Below, one piece after another: positions 1 to 29,926 of a stretch of 39,777 nt of DNA. Below the pieces are notes generated by a model. The model saw only the letters and a program-made list of their open reading frames with translations. It was not told the origin of the DNA and did no database searches. The stretch is from Candidatus Parcubacteria bacterium. GTDB lineage: Bacteria > Patescibacteriota > Minisyncoccia > Phycocordibacterales > JAACPR01. The position numbers and the translations under genes were made by a program. The stretch lies in NCBI GenBank assembly GCA_009995365.1, contig JAACPR010000006.1, positions 1 through 39,777 on the forward strand, given 5' to 3'. Position 1 is the first letter of the stretch; each line of letters begins with the position of its first letter.

Positions 1-733
<733 letters not shown>

Positions 734-1036
734 AATCTAAAAACCACTATATGTTTCTACGAGGTAAATTCTTACAAAAGTAAAAATTTACCTATTTTTT
801 ATGTTTGTGAAAATACAATTTCCTGATTGTATTTTTCAATATTACCACCCAAATGACGTTTAAGACTCTTAAATAAATTTGGATGGTTTGTTTATGTCAA
901 AGTTCAATTTACGAAATTAAGATTTTAGGTTTTTAAAAACCGCTTATGGTTTAAAGCGGCCTCTTTGAAAACATCTAGCAGATGCTCTTAAACTGACCAC
1001 TTGAACCTAAATCTTTTTCTCATAAATGTAGTGGCT

Positions 1037-1064
1037 ATTATACGCATGCAAATAAATAAGTCAA
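1037..1064 (-). promoter_or_regulatory. Putative sigma70-type promoter for the 23S transcript (TTGACT-N16-TATAAT)
   Basis: Minus strand TTGACT (1059-1064), 16-nt spacer, TATAAT (1037-1042), pointing toward the 23S rRNA. Confidence 0.65.
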
Positions 1065-1165
1065 TACTTTTTAGCAAAAGAAAATTTGATGAAAAGTGGA
1101 TAACAATTTTAAAAAAATTCATACCCTATTCACGCCCCACTAGCACCGCTTTAAACATCAATTAC

Positions 1166-4159: not shown

Positions 4160-4250
4160 TAGCACATGAACACTAAAATAGTTTTAAAGAAAAGTTAAAA
4201 TCCGTCTAAAGACAAGTTTTGACAAGAGAGGTAGGTTTGTTAGTATGTAA
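4160..4250. repeat. Array repeat R1 (carries plus-strand TTGACA-N16-TAGTAT promoter)
   Basis: actaaaatagttttaaagaaaagttaaaatccgtctaaagacaagttttgacaagagaggtaggtttgttagtat; homologous to the other R copies. Confidence 0.8.
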
Positions 4251-4252
4251 TC

Positions 4253-4311
4253 ATAAATGGCAATTGAGCCGACCGAGGAACCACCTAGAAATAGGTGGTT
4301 CCGTTTTATTT
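4253..4311 (+). ncRNA. Putative short hairpin RNA 1 with intrinsic terminator
   Basis: Downstream of ttgaca (4219-4224)-N16-tagtat (4241-4246); hairpin GGC-AATTGA-GCC, then GGAACCACCT-AGAAAT-AGGTGGTTCC followed by GTTTTATTT. Confidence 0.55.
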
Positions 4312-4698
4312 AATCAAATCTATTACCCTCTCTTTAATTTGGTTAAAATCATTAAAATATAACTTACTAATAAATCTCCTCAATCTCTTAACACTCATTA
4401 ACTTAATTTGAGACAAAATAACAAAATTTTCAAGTCCGTTAATTTTTATCTTGTGATAGAATTTTTCGTCACCACTTTTGGAACTTATAGGTAGTGTTAA
4501 ACAAATTCTATTATTAAAATTCTTTAAAATTAAAACGGGTCTTTCATACCTATTTTTCTTGCCGTTTTCCTCATCACCTATATTTAACCCAACGGATGCC
4601 CACCAAACCTGTCTTTCTTTTATTTCCAAAAAATTGATTTTATTATCAATCTTTTTCTTCATCTTATTCCACTCATCAAAGTCTTTGCGCACCACCAT
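4306..4698 (-). CDS. PemK/MazF-like toxin family protein (cassette 1)
   Basis: MVVRKDFDEWNKMKKKID..RQVWWASVGLNIGDEENGKKNRYERPVLILKNFNNRICLTLPISSK..FVILSQIKLMSVKRL: PemK/MazF signature (W-x-x-x-G-x-N-x-G-x-E, RPVLIxK, xSQIxxxxxKRL). Confidence 0.85.
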   Translation of the reverse strand: MVVRKDFDEWNKMKKKIDNKINFLEIKERQVWWASVGLNIGDEENGKKNRYERPVLILKNFNNRICLTLPISSKSGDEKFYHKIKINGLENFVILSQIKLMSVKRLRRFISKLYFNDFNQIKERVIDLIK

Positions 4699-4788
4699 AC
4701 CCTATCAAACACACCTAAAATCCTGATAAAGAAAGGTTGAAATCCGTCTCAAGACAAGTTTTGACAAGAAAAATGAATTTGATAATAT
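4699..4788. repeat. Array repeat R2
   Basis: ccctatcaaacacacctaaaatcctgataaagaaaggttgaaatccgtctcaagacaagttttgacaagaaaaatgaatttgataatat. Confidence 0.9.
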
Positions 4789-4794
4789 AGAAGA

Positions 4795-4877
4795 TACAAG
4801 TGCCGTAGGCCCGCCTTCGAAAGAAGGCTAAAAGAAATACAAAAAGCGATTAAAACAAATCTTTAATCGCTTTTTTA
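4795..4877 (+). ncRNA. Putative short structured RNA 2 with terminator
   Basis: ttgaca (4761-4766)-N16-taatat (4783-4788); hairpins GCC-GTA-GGC, GCCTTC-GAAA-GAAGGC (4813-4828), and terminator AAAGCGATTAAA...TTTAATCGCTTTTTT. Confidence 0.65.
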
Positions 4878-5242
4878 ATTTCTTGAAATAAATCCTCGGC
4901 TAATACACAAATTAGTTGAGATAATCTTTTAGTATCTACGACCTTCATTTGAGATATAATTGCTTTTGCCTGTTTACCGCCAATTAGCCCAACATCAAAT
5001 CTATATTTATGCTCTTGTTGTGAAGTGGTGAGTGGTATTGCAAAGAAAGTCATTAGACTCAACCCTTTAATAACTATAACGGGTCTTTTAAAATTAATAT
5101 AATCACCATGTTGCTCGTTACCTATATTCAGCCCTATATTACACCACCATACTTCCCCTTCATGATAAAAACGACCTTTTGATTTTCTATCAATCTTTTT
5201 CTTCATCTTATTCCACTCATCAAAATTTTTGCGCACCACCAA
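4850..5242 (-). CDS. PemK/MazF-like toxin family protein (cassette 2), non-ATG start
   Basis: VVRKNFDEWNKMKKKIDRK..GEVWWCNIGLNIGNEQHGDYINFKRPVIVIKGLSLMTFFAIPLTTS..AKAIISQMKVVDTKRL; start codon is TTG or GTG (gggTTGGTGGTGCGC). Confidence 0.85.
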   Translation of the reverse strand: MVVRKNFDEWNKMKKKIDRKSKGRFYHEGEVWWCNIGLNIGNEQHGDYINFKRPVIVIKGLSLMTFFAIPLTTSQQEHKYRFDVGLIGGKQAKAIISQMKVVDTKRLSQLICVLAEDLFQEIKKAIKDLF

Positions 5243-5310
5243 ACCCTACCAAAACCACCTAAAATCCTGATAAAGAAAAGTTTTGACAAGAGAGGCAGGT
5301 TTGTTATCAT
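5243..5310. repeat. Array repeat R3 (internally deleted version)
   Basis: ccctaccaaaaccacctaaaatcctgataaagaaaagttttgacaagagaggcaggtttgttatcat; lacks the gttgaaatccgtctcaagacaa segment of R2. Confidence 0.85.
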
Positions 5311-5315
5311 TATGA

Positions 5316-5400
5316 ATACAAACGGCTTCGGCAAGACCTTGCGAAAGCAAGGGTAACAAATAGAAAAAATTCAAGGGAGTAATTCCTTGAATTTTTTATT
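5316..5400 (+). ncRNA. Putative short structured RNA 3 with terminator
   Basis: ttgaca (5283-5288)-N16-tatcat (5305-5310); hairpins GC-TTCG-GC, CCTTGC-GAAA-GCAAGG (5337-5352), terminator AAAAAATTCAAGG...CCTTGAATTTTTT. Confidence 0.65.
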
Positions 5401-5769
5401 TAAATCTTCAAAATCTAACGATTCAATATAATCAATTTTATTTAATAACCTCTTTGAATCCAGTAACCGAATCTGAGAAAGTATCGCTGTGCTTTTTTGA
5501 TCATCAAATACCGATTGGAAGGTGTGATAAAATGGCAATGTTTTTATTGTTCTCGTTAGGGGAATAGCCCAAAATATGGATTTATTAAACTTTTTAAAAA
5601 TCAAAACTGGTCTTATAAAATTAGCCCCGACACCATCTTGTTCACTAGAGATATTCAACCCTAAATTACAATTCCAAATTTCTCTCTCATAAAAAATTGG
5701 TTTATTTTCAGATAAATTTATCTGCTTATTCATCTTATTCCACTCATCAAAGTCTTTGCGCACCACCAA
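5371..5769 (-). CDS. PemK/MazF-like toxin family protein (cassette 3), non-ATG start
   Basis: VVRKDFDEWNKMNKQIN..REIWNCNLGLNISSEQDGVGANFIRPVLIFKKFNKSIFWAIPLTRT..TAILSQIRLLDSKRL. Confidence 0.85.
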   Translation of the reverse strand: MVVRKDFDEWNKMNKQINLSENKPIFYEREIWNCNLGLNISSEQDGVGANFIRPVLIFKKFNKSIFWAIPLTRTIKTLPFYHTFQSVFDDQKSTAILSQIRLLDSKRLLNKIDYIESLDFEDLNKKFKELLP

Positions 5770-5859
5770 ACCCTAACAAACTCACCTAAAATCATTATAA
5801 AGAAAGATTAAAATCGAACTAAAAACCAATTTTGACATTAAAAATGAATTTGATACTAT
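5766..5859. repeat. Array repeat R4
   Basis: ccctaacaaactcacctaaaatcattataaagaaagattaaaatcgaactaaaaaccaattttgacattaaaaatgaatttgatactat. Confidence 0.85.
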
Positions 5860-5865
5860 AAAAAC

Positions 5866-5916
5866 ATCACGACGAAAAGGTTTTGTAGGGGTTCCGTCCC
5901 TTACAAAGCCTTTTTA
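5866..5916 (+). ncRNA. Putative short hairpin RNA 4 with terminator
   Basis: ttgaca (5832-5837)-N16-tactat (5854-5859), then hairpin AAGGTTTTGTAGGG-GTTCCG-TCCCTTACAAAGCCTT with TTTTTATTT tail. Confidence 0.55.
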
Positions 5917-5918
5917 TT

Positions 5919-6416
5919 TTATTTAAGCTCTAACTTGTTTCTTTTTCTATTTAAAAATTCAAAAATGTTTTTATCAGGGCGACTAAGCCTCTTCAGCAAA
6001 GCTGAATATTTCTTTTCATCTGGCACCAAAACAATCTCTAATTTATTTTCATTTAGCAAATATTCAACTAAACAATAAAAATCGCCATCACCAGAGACAA
6101 CGATTGCTTTATCAAAATTCTTATACTGTATCATTGTGTGCAAAATTAATTCTGCGTCAACATTTCCTTTTATTTTTCCACCTTTCAATTCAAGAGTTGG
6201 TTTAAAGATACAAATGTAGCCCATGTTTTGAAGTTTTGTATATAATGTTTCATTTCCAGGTATATAACCTATAAATATATAGGCTTTTGTAGTAGAATAT
6301 TTTTCTTTTAAATATTTATAAAATTTTTTAAAGTCCAATTCCCAACCGAGATCTCTAATCCCAAGATTTAAATTCTGACTGTCTATAAAAGCAAAGTTAT
6401 TAACTAATTTTTTCAT
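5919..6416 (-). CDS. NYN-domain (LabA/DUF88, PIN-like) putative RNase, in cassette 4
   Basis: NFAFIDSQNLNLGIRDLGWELDFKKF..KGNVDAELILHTMIQYKNFDKAIVVSGDGDFYCLVEYLL: NYN acidic motifs (FIDxQN, NVDAEL, SGDGDF). Confidence 0.88.
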   Translation of the reverse strand: MKKLVNNFAFIDSQNLNLGIRDLGWELDFKKFYKYLKEKYSTTKAYIFIGYIPGNETLYTKLQNMGYICIFKPTLELKGGKIKGNVDAELILHTMIQYKNFDKAIVVSGDGDFYCLVEYLLNENKLEIVLVPDEKKYSALLKRLSRPDKNIFEFLNRKRNKLELK

Positions 6417-6440
6417 CGATTAACATATTAATAAAATTTA

Positions 6441-6529
6441 TCCTACCAAAACCACCTAAAATCCTGATAAAAAAAGATTAAAATCCGGCTCAAGACGAAT
6501 TTTGACAAAAAAGCTGAGTTTGATATTAT
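6441..6529. repeat. Array repeat R5
   Basis: tcctaccaaaaccacctaaaatcctgataaaaaaagattaaaatccggctcaagacgaattttgacaaaaaagctgagtttgatattat. Confidence 0.9.
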
Positions 6530-6535
6530 GGAGGG

Positions 6536-6608
6536 TACAAATGCCTTCGGGCCCGCCCTCGAAAGAGGGAAAACAAAAAGCTACCAGAACATGTTTCTGA
6601 TAGTTTTT
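6536..6608 (+). ncRNA. Putative short structured RNA 5 with terminator
   Basis: ttgaca (6502-6507)-N16-tattat (6524-6529); hairpins GCC-TTCG-GGC, CCCTC-GAAA-GAGGG (6556-6569), terminator CTACCAGAA-CATG-TTCTGATAG-TTTTTTT (one mismatch on the plus strand). Confidence 0.65.
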
Positions 6609-6973
6609 TTGATTAAATTAAAAGTTTCTTTATCTAGAATAGCTTCTCTTTTATAAAATCTTTTTGTGTCTATTAATTTAATTTGAGATATTATTACTTT
6701 CGCATTTTTACCTCCTATTTTACCTATTGATATATAATATTTATTATTCTTATTAGAAGTAGTTAAAGGAGCAACTATAGAAATATCTTTATTGAACCTC
6801 TTGATAACTAATACTGGTCTATCAAATTCCTTACCTGTTCCATCTTGTTCAAAACCAATATTAATCCCCAACTTACACCACCAAATTTCTCTTGCTTTAT
6901 AATACCGCCTATTGTTATAAGCATTAACATTCTTCTTAACCTTATTCCACTCATCAAAGTCTTTAAGCACCAC
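6581..6973 (-). CDS. PemK/MazF-like toxin family protein (cassette 5)
   Basis: VVLKDFDEWNKVKKNVN..REIWWCKLGINIGFEQDGTGKEFDRPVLVIKRFNKDISIVAPLTTSNKN..AKVIISQIKLIDTKRF. Confidence 0.87.
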   Translation of the reverse strand: MVLKDFDEWNKVKKNVNAYNNRRYYKAREIWWCKLGINIGFEQDGTGKEFDRPVLVIKRFNKDISIVAPLTTSNKNNKYYISIGKIGGKNAKVIISQIKLIDTKRFYKREAILDKETFNLIKKTIRNMFW

Positions 6974-7018
6974 CAGACCCTAACAAAACCCCCTAAAATC
7001 CTGATAAATAAAATCTAA
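6974..7018. repeat. Array repeat R6 (half copy, gene-proximal side only)
   Basis: agaccctaacaaaaccccctaaaatcctgataaataaaatctaaacc; no plus-strand TTGACA promoter follows. Confidence 0.8.
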
Positions 7019-7038
7019 ACCGAACAAAATATAAAACA

Positions 7039-10880: not shown

Positions 10881-10987
10881 GGTTTTTAGTCTTTTATTAA
10901 CGTCTCAGTCTTATCACGCTTTAATTCATGATCAAATCTTGATTTCCGAGATAGTCGAGATAGTTAAAATAAAACTAAAATTTATTA

Positions 10988-11033
10988 TTGACTTTAAAAT
11001 ACTATTGTATATACTTTGGTATATGTATACAAT
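10988..11033 (+). promoter_or_regulatory. Promoter/operator of the RelBE-like TA module
   Basis: TTGACT (10988-10993)-N16-TATACT (11010-11015); perfect inverted repeat ATTGTATA (11004-11011)/TATACAAT (11026-11033). Confidence 0.65.
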
Positions 11034-11298
11034 TTTAAATGTTAAAACAGATAAAAAACTAAAAGAAGAGGCTCGGAGAGTTGCTTCTGAAATAGGTGTT
11101 CCGCTAAGCACTGTTGTTAACTCTTTCCTAAAACAATTCGTAAGAGATCAAGAAGTTACTTTCTCTGCAAAAGAATATAAGATGACCCCTTATCTAGAAT
11201 CTTTGATTGAGGAAACTGAGCAAGACTACAAGAAAGGAAAACTTGAAGGTCCTTTTGACAATGCTGACGATTTCATTAAAAACCTAAACAAACAGTAA
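11023..11298 (+). CDS. RelB/DinJ-like antitoxin
   Basis: MYTILNVKTDKKLKEEARRVASEIGVPLSTVVNSFLKQFVRDQEVTFSA: RelB/DinJ ribbon-helix-helix N-terminus; adjacent to RelE-like toxin. Start reassigned from the track's 10939. Confidence 0.85.
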   Translation: MYTILNVKTDKKLKEEARRVASEIGVPLSTVVNSFLKQFVRDQEVTFSAKEYKMTPYLESLIEETEQDYKKGKLEGPFDNADDFIKNLNKQ

Positions 11299-11561
11299 TG
11301 CTAATTCTTTACAAAAAGAAATTTGAAAAAGAATACCAAAAATTAACAAAAGCAAACAAAGACAAGTTTAATTTAAAGATAAAACTACTACTCGTTGATT
11401 TACACGACAAAAGACTAAATACTCATAAACTTCACGGGAAATATAAAGACTGTTTTAGTATAAACATCACTGGTGACATCAGAGCAGTTTTTAGACTTAA
11501 GGAAAATAATAAAGTTATCATTTTTATAGATATAGGAACACACAGCAAATTATACAAATAA
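11298..11561 (+). CDS. RelE/YafQ-like mRNA interferase toxin
   Basis: KKKFEKEYQKLTKANKDKFNLKIKLLLVDLHDKRLNTHKLHGKYKDCFSINITGDIRAVFRLKENNKVIIFIDIGTHSKLYK: RelE superfamily. Confidence 0.88.
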   Translation: MLILYKKKFEKEYQKLTKANKDKFNLKIKLLLVDLHDKRLNTHKLHGKYKDCFSINITGDIRAVFRLKENNKVIIFIDIGTHSKLYK

Positions 11562-16870: not shown

Positions 16871-17077
16871 CTATCGATTGATGTATGGCATCAAAGCCAT
16901 GAATCTTGCTCTTTTGATTGCTTTTGCCAGACGTCTTTGCATTTTTGCACTGACAGCTGATCTCTTGCTACCAATAATTCTACCGTTTGGATTTACGAAT
17001 TGTTTTAGAACATGAACATCTTTGTAATCGATATGTTCAATATTGTTTTCTTTAAAGAAACATTGTTTTTCAGACAT
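16871..17077 (-). CDS. rpsR: 30S ribosomal protein S18
   Basis: HIDYKDVHVLKQFVNPNGRIIGSKRSAVSAKMQRRLAKAIKRARFMALMPY. Confidence 0.96.
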   Translation of the reverse strand: MSEKQCFFKENNIEHIDYKDVHVLKQFVNPNGRIIGSKRSAVSAKMQRRLAKAIKRARFMALMPYINR

Positions 17078-17128: not shown

Positions 17129-17572
17129 CTAAAACGGAATATCTTCTGGATTGATTTCATCCTCTGGATATTCAATTTGATTACCATCATCTGATGGAGA
17201 TTCTTGTGGTTTCTCAGCATCTGATTTTGGCGTATCAGCCATACTACCAGACTTTGGTCCAAATTGCACGCTTTCTGCGACCACTTCAGTTCTATATTTT
17301 TTAACTCCGTCTTGTTCCCAAGATCTAGTTTGCATTCTACCTTCAACAAAACATGACTGCCCTTTCTTCAAATATTGCCCTGAAGTCTCGGCCTGACGAC
17401 CAAAAACGACAATATTGTGATAATCTACATTTTCTTGCTTGTTACCCTCTTTATCCTTATAAACACGATTTGTGGCCAAACTAAATGTTGTAACCGCAAT
17501 TCCTGATGGCAAGGTTTTTTGTTCTGGGTCCCTTGTCAAATTTCCCACTATCATTGCTTTATTTATATACAT
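17129..17572 (-). CDS. ssb: Single-stranded DNA-binding protein
   Basis: MYINKAMIVGNLTRDPEQKTLPSGIAVTTFSLATNR..VVFGRQAETSGQYLKKGQSCFVEGRMQTRSWEQDGVKKYRTEVVAESVQFG, C-terminal tip DIPF. Confidence 0.97.
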   Translation of the reverse strand: MYINKAMIVGNLTRDPEQKTLPSGIAVTTFSLATNRVYKDKEGNKQENVDYHNIVVFGRQAETSGQYLKKGQSCFVEGRMQTRSWEQDGVKKYRTEVVAESVQFGPKSGSMADTPKSDAEKPQESPSDDGNQIEYPEDEINPEDIPF

Positions 17573-17612
17573 GATTAAATCTTAACCGAAAATCGCCGAT
17601 AGTCAATTTGAA

Positions 17613-17630
17613 ATTTTAGAAAGATTTTAG
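17613..17630. repeat. 18-bp direct repeat, copy 1 (attttagaaagattttag)
   Basis: Identical to 18243-18260; flanks the HicA-type TA module. Confidence 0.9.
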
Positions 17631-17644
17631 AATTTGAAATTAAA

Positions 17645-17956
17645 TTAATTTAATGCTAAATCACGCAGGTATTGCGATACTGAATCATACCCCTTAGATA
17701 TGGCCTTTTTTTCAATTCTCATTTTGTCTTTTGGAGAAATCCTAAATCTAATTATTTCATTTTGTTTATCTAAATACTTTTGTTCAGCGATAATTAAATT
17801 TGGTAAGTCTATAATTAAATTTGGGATATCCTCATTCAAAAAAACTTGATCAATGTTTGCATCTTTTGATATTAGACGAATTCTATTTTTGGTTTTTTTC
17901 TCCAAAATATAAGAGTAATTTTTATTTTTTATTTTAATGAATGATTTTGTTTTCAT
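17645..17956 (-). CDS. Putative antitoxin with C-terminal RHH-like segment, partner of HicA-like toxin
   Basis: RFRISPKDKMRIEKKAISKGYDSVSQYLRDLALN resembles a ribbon-helix-helix; overlaps the HicA-like ORF by 4 nt. Confidence 0.7.
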   Translation of the reverse strand: MKTKSFIKIKNKNYSYILEKKTKNRIRLISKDANIDQVFLNEDIPNLIIDLPNLIIAEQKYLDKQNEIIRFRISPKDKMRIEKKAISKGYDSVSQYLRDLALN

Positions 17957-18198
17957 TTTATTATTTTATTTATAATTAATATTTTAAGTATTTCTTTTTT
18001 ATAGAAATTTTTGCATTCACCATTATGGATTGGAACAATAACATCTGTATTCAATTTAGAATGTTTATACTTAACATGACTACCTTTTGCCTTGATTAAA
18101 TCAAATTCAAGATGAATTAAAACATTCTTAATATTTCTATATTTTAGGGTTTCGGGATTTGTTTTAAATTTGTGAATTAATTTATCTATCTTACTCAC
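17953..18198 (-). CDS. HicA/YcfA-like toxin
   Basis: IKAKGSHVKYKHSKLNTDVIVPIHNGECKNFYKKEILKIL: HicA pattern (GSHxxYxH..vPxHnxe). Confidence 0.8.
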   Translation of the reverse strand: MSKIDKLIHKFKTNPETLKYRNIKNVLIHLEFDLIKAKGSHVKYKHSKLNTDVIVPIHNGECKNFYKKEILKILIINKIIK

Positions 18199-18242
18199 GT
18201 AGCTACATATTATTATAAAGTAGCTACATTTGTCAATACAGT

Positions 18243-18260
18243 ATTTTAGAAAGATTTTAG
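18243..18260. repeat. 18-bp direct repeat, copy 2 (attttagaaagattttag)
   Basis: Identical to 17613-17630; a 17-bp match (attttagaaagatttta) also occurs at 29910-29926. Confidence 0.9.
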
Positions 18261-18269
18261 AAAAAAGAA

Positions 18270-18292
18270 AAAACGCCTTTTGGCGCTTTCCC
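18270..18292 (-). terminator. Intrinsic terminator after rpsF
   Basis: Minus strand AGCGCC-AAAA-GGCGTTTTTTC. Confidence 0.75.
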
Positions 18293-18314
18293 TACTCTGT
18301 ATTTTGGAGATGAA

Positions 18315-18827
18315 TTATTTATCGTCTTCTGAATCATCAGCAGGAGCTTCTTCGGTATCTTCCTCAGAATCATCTTGTTCTGAAACTTCTACTGTCTCTG
18401 GTGCTTTTTCTTCTTCTGATCCTTCTCCCTCTGAATCGTCTTCTTCTGACTTGTCCTCGTTAGTAATTTTTGAAGTGCTATGTTCATCATCATCTGTAGT
18501 TTTTATAATAATACTTCTGATAATTTCATCATTAGCATCAATTTCTTCTTTTATTGATTCAATCCCTTCTGCTGTAGAATTAAACTTAATCCATGCAAAA
18601 GTTGAAGTTGTAAATCTTTCATTTTTTCCAGCAATACTTTTAGTTATTTCATAAACTAATTTCATAGCTTGTGGTTCACCCTCTTTAACAATCTCTGCGC
18701 CATTTTTTGTTAAAACAGCCTTTATTTCATCGATTTTCTTTGAAATTTGGTCATCGTTAATAGCAGGATTAACATGAAATCCTAATTCATAAAGCTTTGC
18801 TTCGTTTGTTGTATTTTCATCTGTCAT
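18315..18827 (-). CDS. rpsF: 30S ribosomal protein S6 with long acidic C-terminal tail
   Basis: YELGFHVNPAINDDQISKKIDEIKAVLTKNGAEIVKEGEPQAMKLVYEITKSIAGKNERFTTSTFAWIKF = S6; tail EDKSEEDDSEGEGSEEEKAPETVEVSEQDDSEEDTEEAPADDSEDDK. Confidence 0.92.
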   Translation of the reverse strand: MTDENTTNEAKLYELGFHVNPAINDDQISKKIDEIKAVLTKNGAEIVKEGEPQAMKLVYEITKSIAGKNERFTTSTFAWIKFNSTAEGIESIKEEIDANDEIIRSIIIKTTDDDEHSTSKITNEDKSEEDDSEGEGSEEEKAPETVEVSEQDDSEEDTEEAPADDSEDDK

Positions 18828-29356: not shown

Positions 29357-29620
29357 TTATTGATAAATTTGATGACCGCCGACTTTTAATAAAATTATTT
29401 GATTATTTTTCTTATCGATTTCAAAAACAACTCGATATCTGTAATCAACAGAGAAAGAATAGAAACCAGACAATTGACCACTTAGCTTGTGCGCTTTCAA
29501 AGTTTTATTTTTAGGATTTTTTTGAAATTTATTAATTGACAGTTTAGTTTTCTTTTTTAGAGATGGAGTAAGTTTTTTGTATTGTTTTATAAAGTGTTTT
29601 GTATAAAATATTTTAATCAT
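29357..29620 (-). CDS. RelE/YafQ-like toxin
   Basis: MIKIFYTKHFIKQYKKLTPSLKKKTKLSINKFQKNPKNKTLKAHKLSGQLSGFYSFSVDYRYRVVFEIDKKNNQIILLKVGGHQIYQ. Confidence 0.85.
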   Translation of the reverse strand: MIKIFYTKHFIKQYKKLTPSLKKKTKLSINKFQKNPKNKTLKAHKLSGQLSGFYSFSVDYRYRVVFEIDKKNNQIILLKVGGHQIYQ

Positions 29621-29623
29621 ATT

Positions 29624-29845
29624 TTAAGAAACTTTTTTTACTAACTGATCTATATCTCCTTCAAAAATTTCTCCCAATTTTGCCATTTTTGATGCTTCAT
29701 GAATTTCTGCTATTTCTTTTTCTTCAATCATTTTTTTAATAGCATTACGAATAAATTGAGAACGACTGTCAAAATCACCTTTTTCGATTTCGGCGTCGAT
29801 ATATTCGAGATACTCTTTTTGGATTGGAATACTGATATTAGTCAT
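29624..29845 (-). CDS. RHH antitoxin (CopG/ParD-like)
   Basis: ISIPIQKEYLEYIDAEIEKGDFDSRSQFIRNAIKKMIEE. Confidence 0.82.
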   Translation of the reverse strand: MTNISIPIQKEYLEYIDAEIEKGDFDSRSQFIRNAIKKMIEEKEIAEIHEASKMAKLGEIFEGDIDQLVKKVS

Positions 29846-29926
29846 AATATTTTTTATTATTATTTAATAAATTTTATTATACACAAAACGAGTCAAAAAT
29901 CAATCACGGATTTTAGAAAGATTTTA

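Follow-up and report, generated by a model that had tools for sequence, protein, structure and literature searches.

Unrelated toxin-antitoxin modules and ssb of a small Candidatus Parcubacteria genome share a 17-bp element upstream of the -35 box, a probable lineage-specific activator site

In most descriptions, toxin-antitoxin (TA) modules stand alone as self-contained units, and every one is repressed by the antitoxin that it encodes. Upstream (UP) elements, the sites of the C-terminal domain of the RNA polymerase alpha subunit (alpha-CTD), have in Escherichia coli a consensus defined by position and A-tracts, and activators of the OmpR/PhoB type use direct-repeat sites with a 6-N5-6 layout and an 11-bp period. 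Cross-regulation between TA systems has been reviewed for CopA acting on pemIK and for Axe-Txe and YefM-YoeB (PMC10305079), and toxin-driven cross-activation of TA operons has been described in E. coli (PMC3598666). The present analysis concerns a 39,777-nt stretch, hereafter the window, of the 758-kb genome of a Candidatus Parcubacteria bacterium (G000), where a HicA-type TA module located between rpsF and ssb is bracketed by two copies of one short repeat; coordinates are those of the window unless a contig (C) or locus (L) is named. The repeats are very probably two copies of a single cis-acting, lineage-specific activator site in the position of an UP element, which would give unrelated TA operons, and ssb, a common control in addition to autoregulation.

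All genes of the cluster are encoded on the - strand, in the order rpsF, terminator, hicA, the gene of a ribbon-helix-helix (RHH) protein, ssb, and rpsR (Table 1). A sequence-only reading of the window had reported the HicA-like/RHH pair between rpsF and ssb, an intrinsic terminator after rpsF, and perfect 18-bp direct repeats at 17613-17630 and 18243-18260, and all of this was borne out: gene order and Pfam matches confirm the pair, with the HicA product scoring above the Pfam cut-off for PF07927, the terminator lies at 18293-18266, and the repeated 18-mer is ATTTTAGAAAGATTTTAG. Since the 18th base differs in other genomic copies, the conserved unit on the coding (-) strand is 17 bp, usually TAAAATCTTTCTAAAAT. 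It contains an 11-bp direct repeat, TAAAAT-N4-CTAAAAT, with two TAAAAT half-sites one helical turn apart; according to position weights, conservation resides in the half-sites TAAAAT and CTAAAAT at their 11-bp distance, with the C at element position 11 and the flanking T nearly invariant. Relative to the predicted -35 boxes, and counting the hexamer as -35 to -30, the element spans approximately -58 to -42, all promoters being predicted from consensus matches to -35 and -10 boxes.

The exact 17-mer occurs eight or nine times in G000, depending on whether a copy at a cupin gene is counted with the promoters, compared with 0.006 occurrences expected in the whole genome under Markov models of order 1-4. 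Every exact copy except the one at the cupin gene is followed, at the same 6-bp distance, by TTGA (TTGT once); the 17 bases, the 6-bp gap, and TTGA are found together within one mismatch at nine sites, and the pattern of element plus -35 box is matched 11 times versus 2 for reversed-pattern controls. Moreover, only 1 of 60 simulated windows held any 18-mer repeated within 1 kb. A chance or low-complexity AT-rich repeat might be suspected in an A/T-rich motif from a genome whose sample for background statistics (about 278 kb, 37% of G000) is 66% A+T; this explanation is refuted by the copy counts, is also opposed by the reversed-pattern controls and by the coherence of position and function, and retains a negligible probability.

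Family searches of G000 found 7 ParE/RelE, 2 HicA, and 5 PemK toxins, and the element or a close variant accompanies all 14 of them (7/7 RelE-type, 2/2 HicA, and 5/5 PemK/MazF). Ten have it at the operon promoter, and the four of a MazF array in the window have it at a convergent predicted small-RNA promoter. The antitoxins of the element-bearing modules include RelB, ParD, Phd/YefM, HicB-like, and MazE types. Exact copies precede RelB-YafQ (C1), RelBE (C6 and C15), ParD-RelE (C17:29926), HicA (C17), a HicB-like orphan (C19:16581), MazEF (C19:105559), and ssb, while a one-mismatch copy precedes Phd/YefM-RelE (C9) and, when the inner four bases are relaxed, the element is also recognized at RHH-RelE (C11), HicBA (C18:6317), and RelB-YafQ (window 10965). 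As in a transcription-factor regulon, the same sequence stands in a fixed place before functionally related, non-homologous operons. The genome-wide search for the motif proposed in the sequence-only reading, which had considered that the repeat might be a common intergenic sequence unrelated to TA modules, instead placed the eight or nine exact copies near-exclusively at TA modules.

This distribution bears on the possibility that the repeats are operators through which the RHH antitoxin represses its own operon and ssb, a reading suggested by the binding of RHH antitoxins to short repeats and by the presence of the element upstream of both hicA and ssb. It was rejected as highly improbable because the same 17-mer precedes modules with unrelated antitoxin folds (MazE, Phd/YefM, and HicB-like) and because a separate palindrome, GTAGCTAC, present twice, overlaps the core promoter, the element itself lying upstream of the -35 box. 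In addition, the element occurs at small-RNA promoters devoid of a protein antitoxin and in both same-family relatives compared, G001 and G002 (n=2, the two nearest genera), where no RHH homologue was found. The GTAGCTAC pair is presumed to be the autoregulatory operator of the HicA/RHH module.

The background sample contains 58 sigma70-like TTGACA/TATAAT sites. Mismatches to the half-site pattern number 0-3 at the 6 TA or small-RNA promoters among them and at least 6 at the remaining 52 (Fisher p = 2e-8), so the element is no general promoter feature in G000; the 23S rRNA promoter (window 1064, - strand) has 8 mismatches. An ordinary UP element, which would bind alpha-CTD and make promoters strong without any dedicated regulator, is an alternative in keeping with the layout, since the position given above for the predicted -35 boxes and the two A-tracts one turn apart resemble the E. 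coli consensus. Moreover, alpha-CTD (PF03118) is encoded in G000, G001, and G002, extra half-sites phased at 11 or 22 bp precede small-RNA promoters, and the element lies 17 (6+11) bp from the -35 box at two promoters of G002. Nevertheless, none of the remaining 52 promoter-like sites shows a trace of it, not even the 23S rRNA promoter, where UP elements would be expected first, and a clean gap separates 3 from 6 mismatches. Furthermore, position 11 (C) and the flanking T hardly vary, and other families of the order lack the element even though alpha-CTD is a domain of RNA polymerases generally. Because of the 52 sites without it, a general UP element is kept as a rival only and seems unlikely. 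A lineage-specific activator is favoured by the near-invariant sequence, by its absence from rRNA and other promoters, and by its restriction to one family.

No exact match to the element with its -35 box was found in about 295 other genomes of the order, and allowing one mismatch added only G002 and G058, the match in the latter being one of sequence only. In G002, the element lies 5' of a BrnT-type TA pair and variants precede RelBE and small RNAs adjoining MazF and NYN genes; in G001, it precedes ssb, with no TA there, and also a small RNA in convergent orientation to a NYN gene. RelE-type loci inspected in other families of the order lack it in all cases (0/28, Fisher p = 1.5e-7 versus 7/7 in G000). 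The RelB proteins of C15 and L154 share 75% identity, and both module promoters have TTGACA and the operator ATACCAT...TATACTTATGGTAT; the sequences upstream of their -35 boxes are unrelated. Likewise, a GTGATACAC-type operator is common to the C11 RHH antitoxin and its seven homologues (49-61% identity), and the homologues lack the element. Because homologous modules keep core promoter and operator without it, the element does not belong to TA modules as such, and the simplest account of these sequences has at least six separate modules gaining it upstream of their -35 boxes within this lineage. A search of 84,980 species genomes gave two exact matches, in a Candidatus Pelagibacter and in a metagenome-assembled genome (MAG) from a marine biofilm; both look like chance, the MAG copy being inside a coding frame, and presence in other phyla was rejected. 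A viral origin was also discarded, with 0 matches in IMG/VR.

At the rpsF-ssb junction, the TA is absent wherever the junction is readable in 20 relatives and, as no relative examined has a TA at this place, the HicA pair is regarded as an addition, which supports the insertion proposed in the sequence-only reading. In genomes from outside the family, the distance between rpsF and ssb is mostly short (4-20 bp in many, greater in some), and the element is missing. The gap measures 76 bp in G001 and about 95 bp in G002, each with a -35/-10 promoter and no TA; the ssb promoter of G001 carries the element with 2 mismatches in the half-sites, and that of G002 has no clear copy. Thus, the downstream repeat is best read as the old ssb promoter element and the upstream repeat as that of the TA promoter. 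The idea that the insertion split the ribosomal operon transcriptionally becomes unnecessary, given that ssb has its own promoter in both TA-free relatives of the family. The single copy that a scar would leave at an empty site was not borne out either: the one variant copy of G001 is the element of the ssb promoter, and G002 has no clear copy.

Among the origins suggested for the repeats, paired regulatory sites are favoured, the hicA and ssb promoters each having one copy as upstream element at 6 bp from the -35 box. An integration scar or recombination site, in which site-specific insertion of the TA left one 18-bp copy per side, would account for perfect direct repeats around the TA, for the missing TA in relatives, and for single copies before many TA modules. 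However, at the other TA loci a second copy is missing over 1.5-3.5 kb and none lies downstream, which argues against a scar, as do the identical 6-bp distance of both copies from a -35 box, the TA-free ssb copy of G001, and the lack of any integrase noted at the locus. The scar was rejected on account of the single copies elsewhere and of the G001 ssb copy, and its chances appear very slim.

Comparison of these sequences establishes that the element exists, that it occupies a fixed place, that it is linked near-exclusively to TA modules, and that homologous modules elsewhere lack it; we infer that it is bound by a factor, activates, and co-regulates. According to the activator-site explanation, a factor at the element, either a lineage-specific activator or alpha-CTD, would occupy the face shared with RNA polymerase and raise transcription of all element-bearing promoters together, while each TA module would retain a palindrome of its own, bound by its antitoxin, within or close to the core promoter, combining ordinary autoregulation with common control. 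HicA/RHH would have entered rpsF-ssb after ssb had acquired its own promoter, and the two matching elements would put this TA and ssb under the same control. That a dedicated master regulator of the family switches on unrelated protein and RNA TA modules and ssb through one site, acquired by new modules upstream of the -35 box, is a tentative proposal with somewhat less than an even chance. A repressor acting at the element would be less usual upstream of a -35 box.

Several points weigh against common activation. A candidate regulator was not found, no genome-wide search for one having been made, and the toxin census covered three families, VapC/PIN, HipA, Fic, and others being outside the genome-wide search. 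Three sites, those of ssb, the cupin gene, and panD, are not TA promoters: the cupin-gene site (C18:9022; L012 1723-1739) has the exact 17-mer with no good -35 box at 6 bp, and the panD site (C21:34362; L015 1763-1779) has 1 mismatch and a weak -35 box, so that both genes are possible non-TA members of the set. Some members are degenerate, including HicBA of C18 (2 mismatches), RelBE of C17 (a different spacer), and the small-RNA copies. Finally, a plain UP element would not usually take the form of an exact, conserved 17-mer.

Table 1. Features of the rpsF-rpsR cluster and further copies of the element in the window
Feature	Position	Strand	Match or remark
rpsF (S6)	18315-18827	-	PF01250
Intrinsic terminator 3' of rpsF	18266-18293	-	
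Element TAAAATCTTTCTAAAAT, hicA copy	18243-18259	-	Inside 18-bp repeat 18243-18260; ends 6 bp upstream of TTGACA
-35 box TTGACA, predicted hicA promoter	18231-18236	-	
-10-like box AATAAT, predicted hicA promoter	18209-18214	-	Spacer 16
Two GTAGCTAC palindromes	18199-18206 and 18220-18227		Flanking hicA -10; read in sequence
hicA toxin gene	17953-18198	-	GTG start, 81 aa; PF07927, E=1.2e-8
RHH protein, presumed antitoxin	17645-17956	-	103 aa, RHH at residues 64-103; PF21983 (NikA-like), E=3.7e-7
Element, ssb copy	17613-17629	-	Inside 18-bp repeat 17613-17630; ends 6 bp upstream of TTGACT
-35 box TTGACT, predicted ssb promoter	17601-17606	-	
-10-like box TAAGAT, predicted ssb promoter	17579-17584	-	Spacer 16
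ssb	17129-17572	-	PF00436, E=1.1e-37
rpsR (S18)	16871-17077	-	PF01084
Exact third copy of the element	29910-29926	-	6 bp upstream of TTGATT
ParD-like RHH antitoxin	29624-29845	-	PF01402/PF03693
RelE/ParE-type toxin	29357-29620	-	PF05016/PF15781
Element variant TAAAATAAAACTAAAAT	10965-10981	+	6 bp upstream of TTGACT
RelB-like antitoxin	11023-11298	+	PF04221
YafQ-like toxin	11298-11561	+	PF15738, E=4e-10
Element variant TAAAATCCGTCTAAAGA	4196-4212	+	Ends 6 bp before TTGACA of predicted small-RNA promoter; MazF/PemK gene convergent
Two successive variants, 22 bp apart	4716-4732 and 4738-4754	+	Before predicted small-RNA promoter
Element variant	5260-5276	+	Before predicted small-RNA promoter
Two successive variants	5787-5803 and 5809-5825	+	Before predicted small-RNA promoter convergent to NYN gene
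Two successive variants	6457-6473 and 6479-6495	+	Before predicted small-RNA promoter

Besides the two repeats, the window holds one more exact copy and degenerate ones before the RelB-like gene and in an array at 4196-6495 (Table 1). From 4196 to 7020, the - strand carries four MazF/PemK genes and a NYN gene, and each of them is faced on its 3' side by a convergent promoter that lies on the + strand and bears the element, together with a predicted short RNA and a terminator. The five predicted RNAs fall within 4196-6560, and several have a UUCG-type hairpin and a GNRA-capped hairpin. The same layout is present in G002 (C1:16500-18250) and once in G001. Rfam recognized only 23S rRNA in the window and assigned no known family to the predicted small RNAs, and the array looks like an uncharacterised RNA-linked TA type. 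Two small-RNA promoters of G002 (L096 607 and 2059) have the variant TAAAATAGTTCTAAAGT 17 bp from TTGACT, one helical turn further upstream.

Regarding the partner of HicA, no HicB family match was obtained from Pfam, only the NikA-like RHH, and its single-sequence AlphaFold2 model (pLDDT 55) is too poor to judge the N-terminal domain. The orphan HicB-like antitoxin gene at L013 1682-1900 has the element and no toxin gene downstream. Reverse-transcriptase-like genes end directly 5' of the element at L010 625-1674, L013 691-1695, and L069 515-1480, next to RelBE at C6, the HicB-like gene at C19, and RelBE in C1 of G002; reverse transcriptase and TA appear to travel or stay together. A weak copy at L083 16300-16950 (- strand) precedes TTGACA and a terminator-like transcript of very short length, and a possible secreted or lysozyme-like protein is encoded downstream. 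The 23S rRNA gene (window 1-1070, - strand) has its 5' end near 730 and its own promoter, TTGACT-16-TATAAT, at about 1064, with no 16S gene directly upstream, the rRNA genes being unlinked.

Taken together, the shared site suggests that TA systems thought to regulate themselves singly are under one common control. If the element at essentially all TA modules of a small genome does have this role, a host is able to assemble the TA modules that it acquires into a single regulon, and the signal acting through the element would be the signal answered by the whole TA set, which would provide a handle on chromosomal TA function. The presence of ssb in the set points, speculatively, to DNA-related stress or DNA uptake. 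Moreover, the element is a simple computational marker of new TA types and RNA-linked modules downstream, such as the MazF/NYN small-RNA array. Regulons defined by a promoter element are already known and a TA-wide one is new to us; no report of an upstream element shared by unrelated TA promoters was found in the open-access literature, subscription papers being outside the search.

As in HicAB systems, hicA comes first, the HicA domain contains the GSH motif, the partner has an RHH domain, and the two genes overlap by 4 bp; however, this partner matches a NikA-like RHH and no HicB family. With UP elements, the site has in common its place just upstream of the -35 box, the A-tracts in 11-bp phase, and a genome encoding alpha-CTD, and it differs in being nearly invariant over 17 bp, in its occurrence at TA, small-RNA, and ssb promoters and not at the rRNA promoter, and in its confinement to one family. 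Its TAAAAT-N5-TAAAAT geometry upstream of the -35 box is also that of OmpR/PhoB-type sites, a likeness of site geometry alone, whereas in the element the inner bases are conserved too. As in the known cases of TA cross-regulation (PMC10305079, PMC3598666), transcription of separate TA operons would be linked; nevertheless, the link is made there by an antitoxin on a second, similar operator or by toxin activity, whereas here it would be made by one site upstream of the -35 box, common to unrelated TA families and RNA-linked modules.
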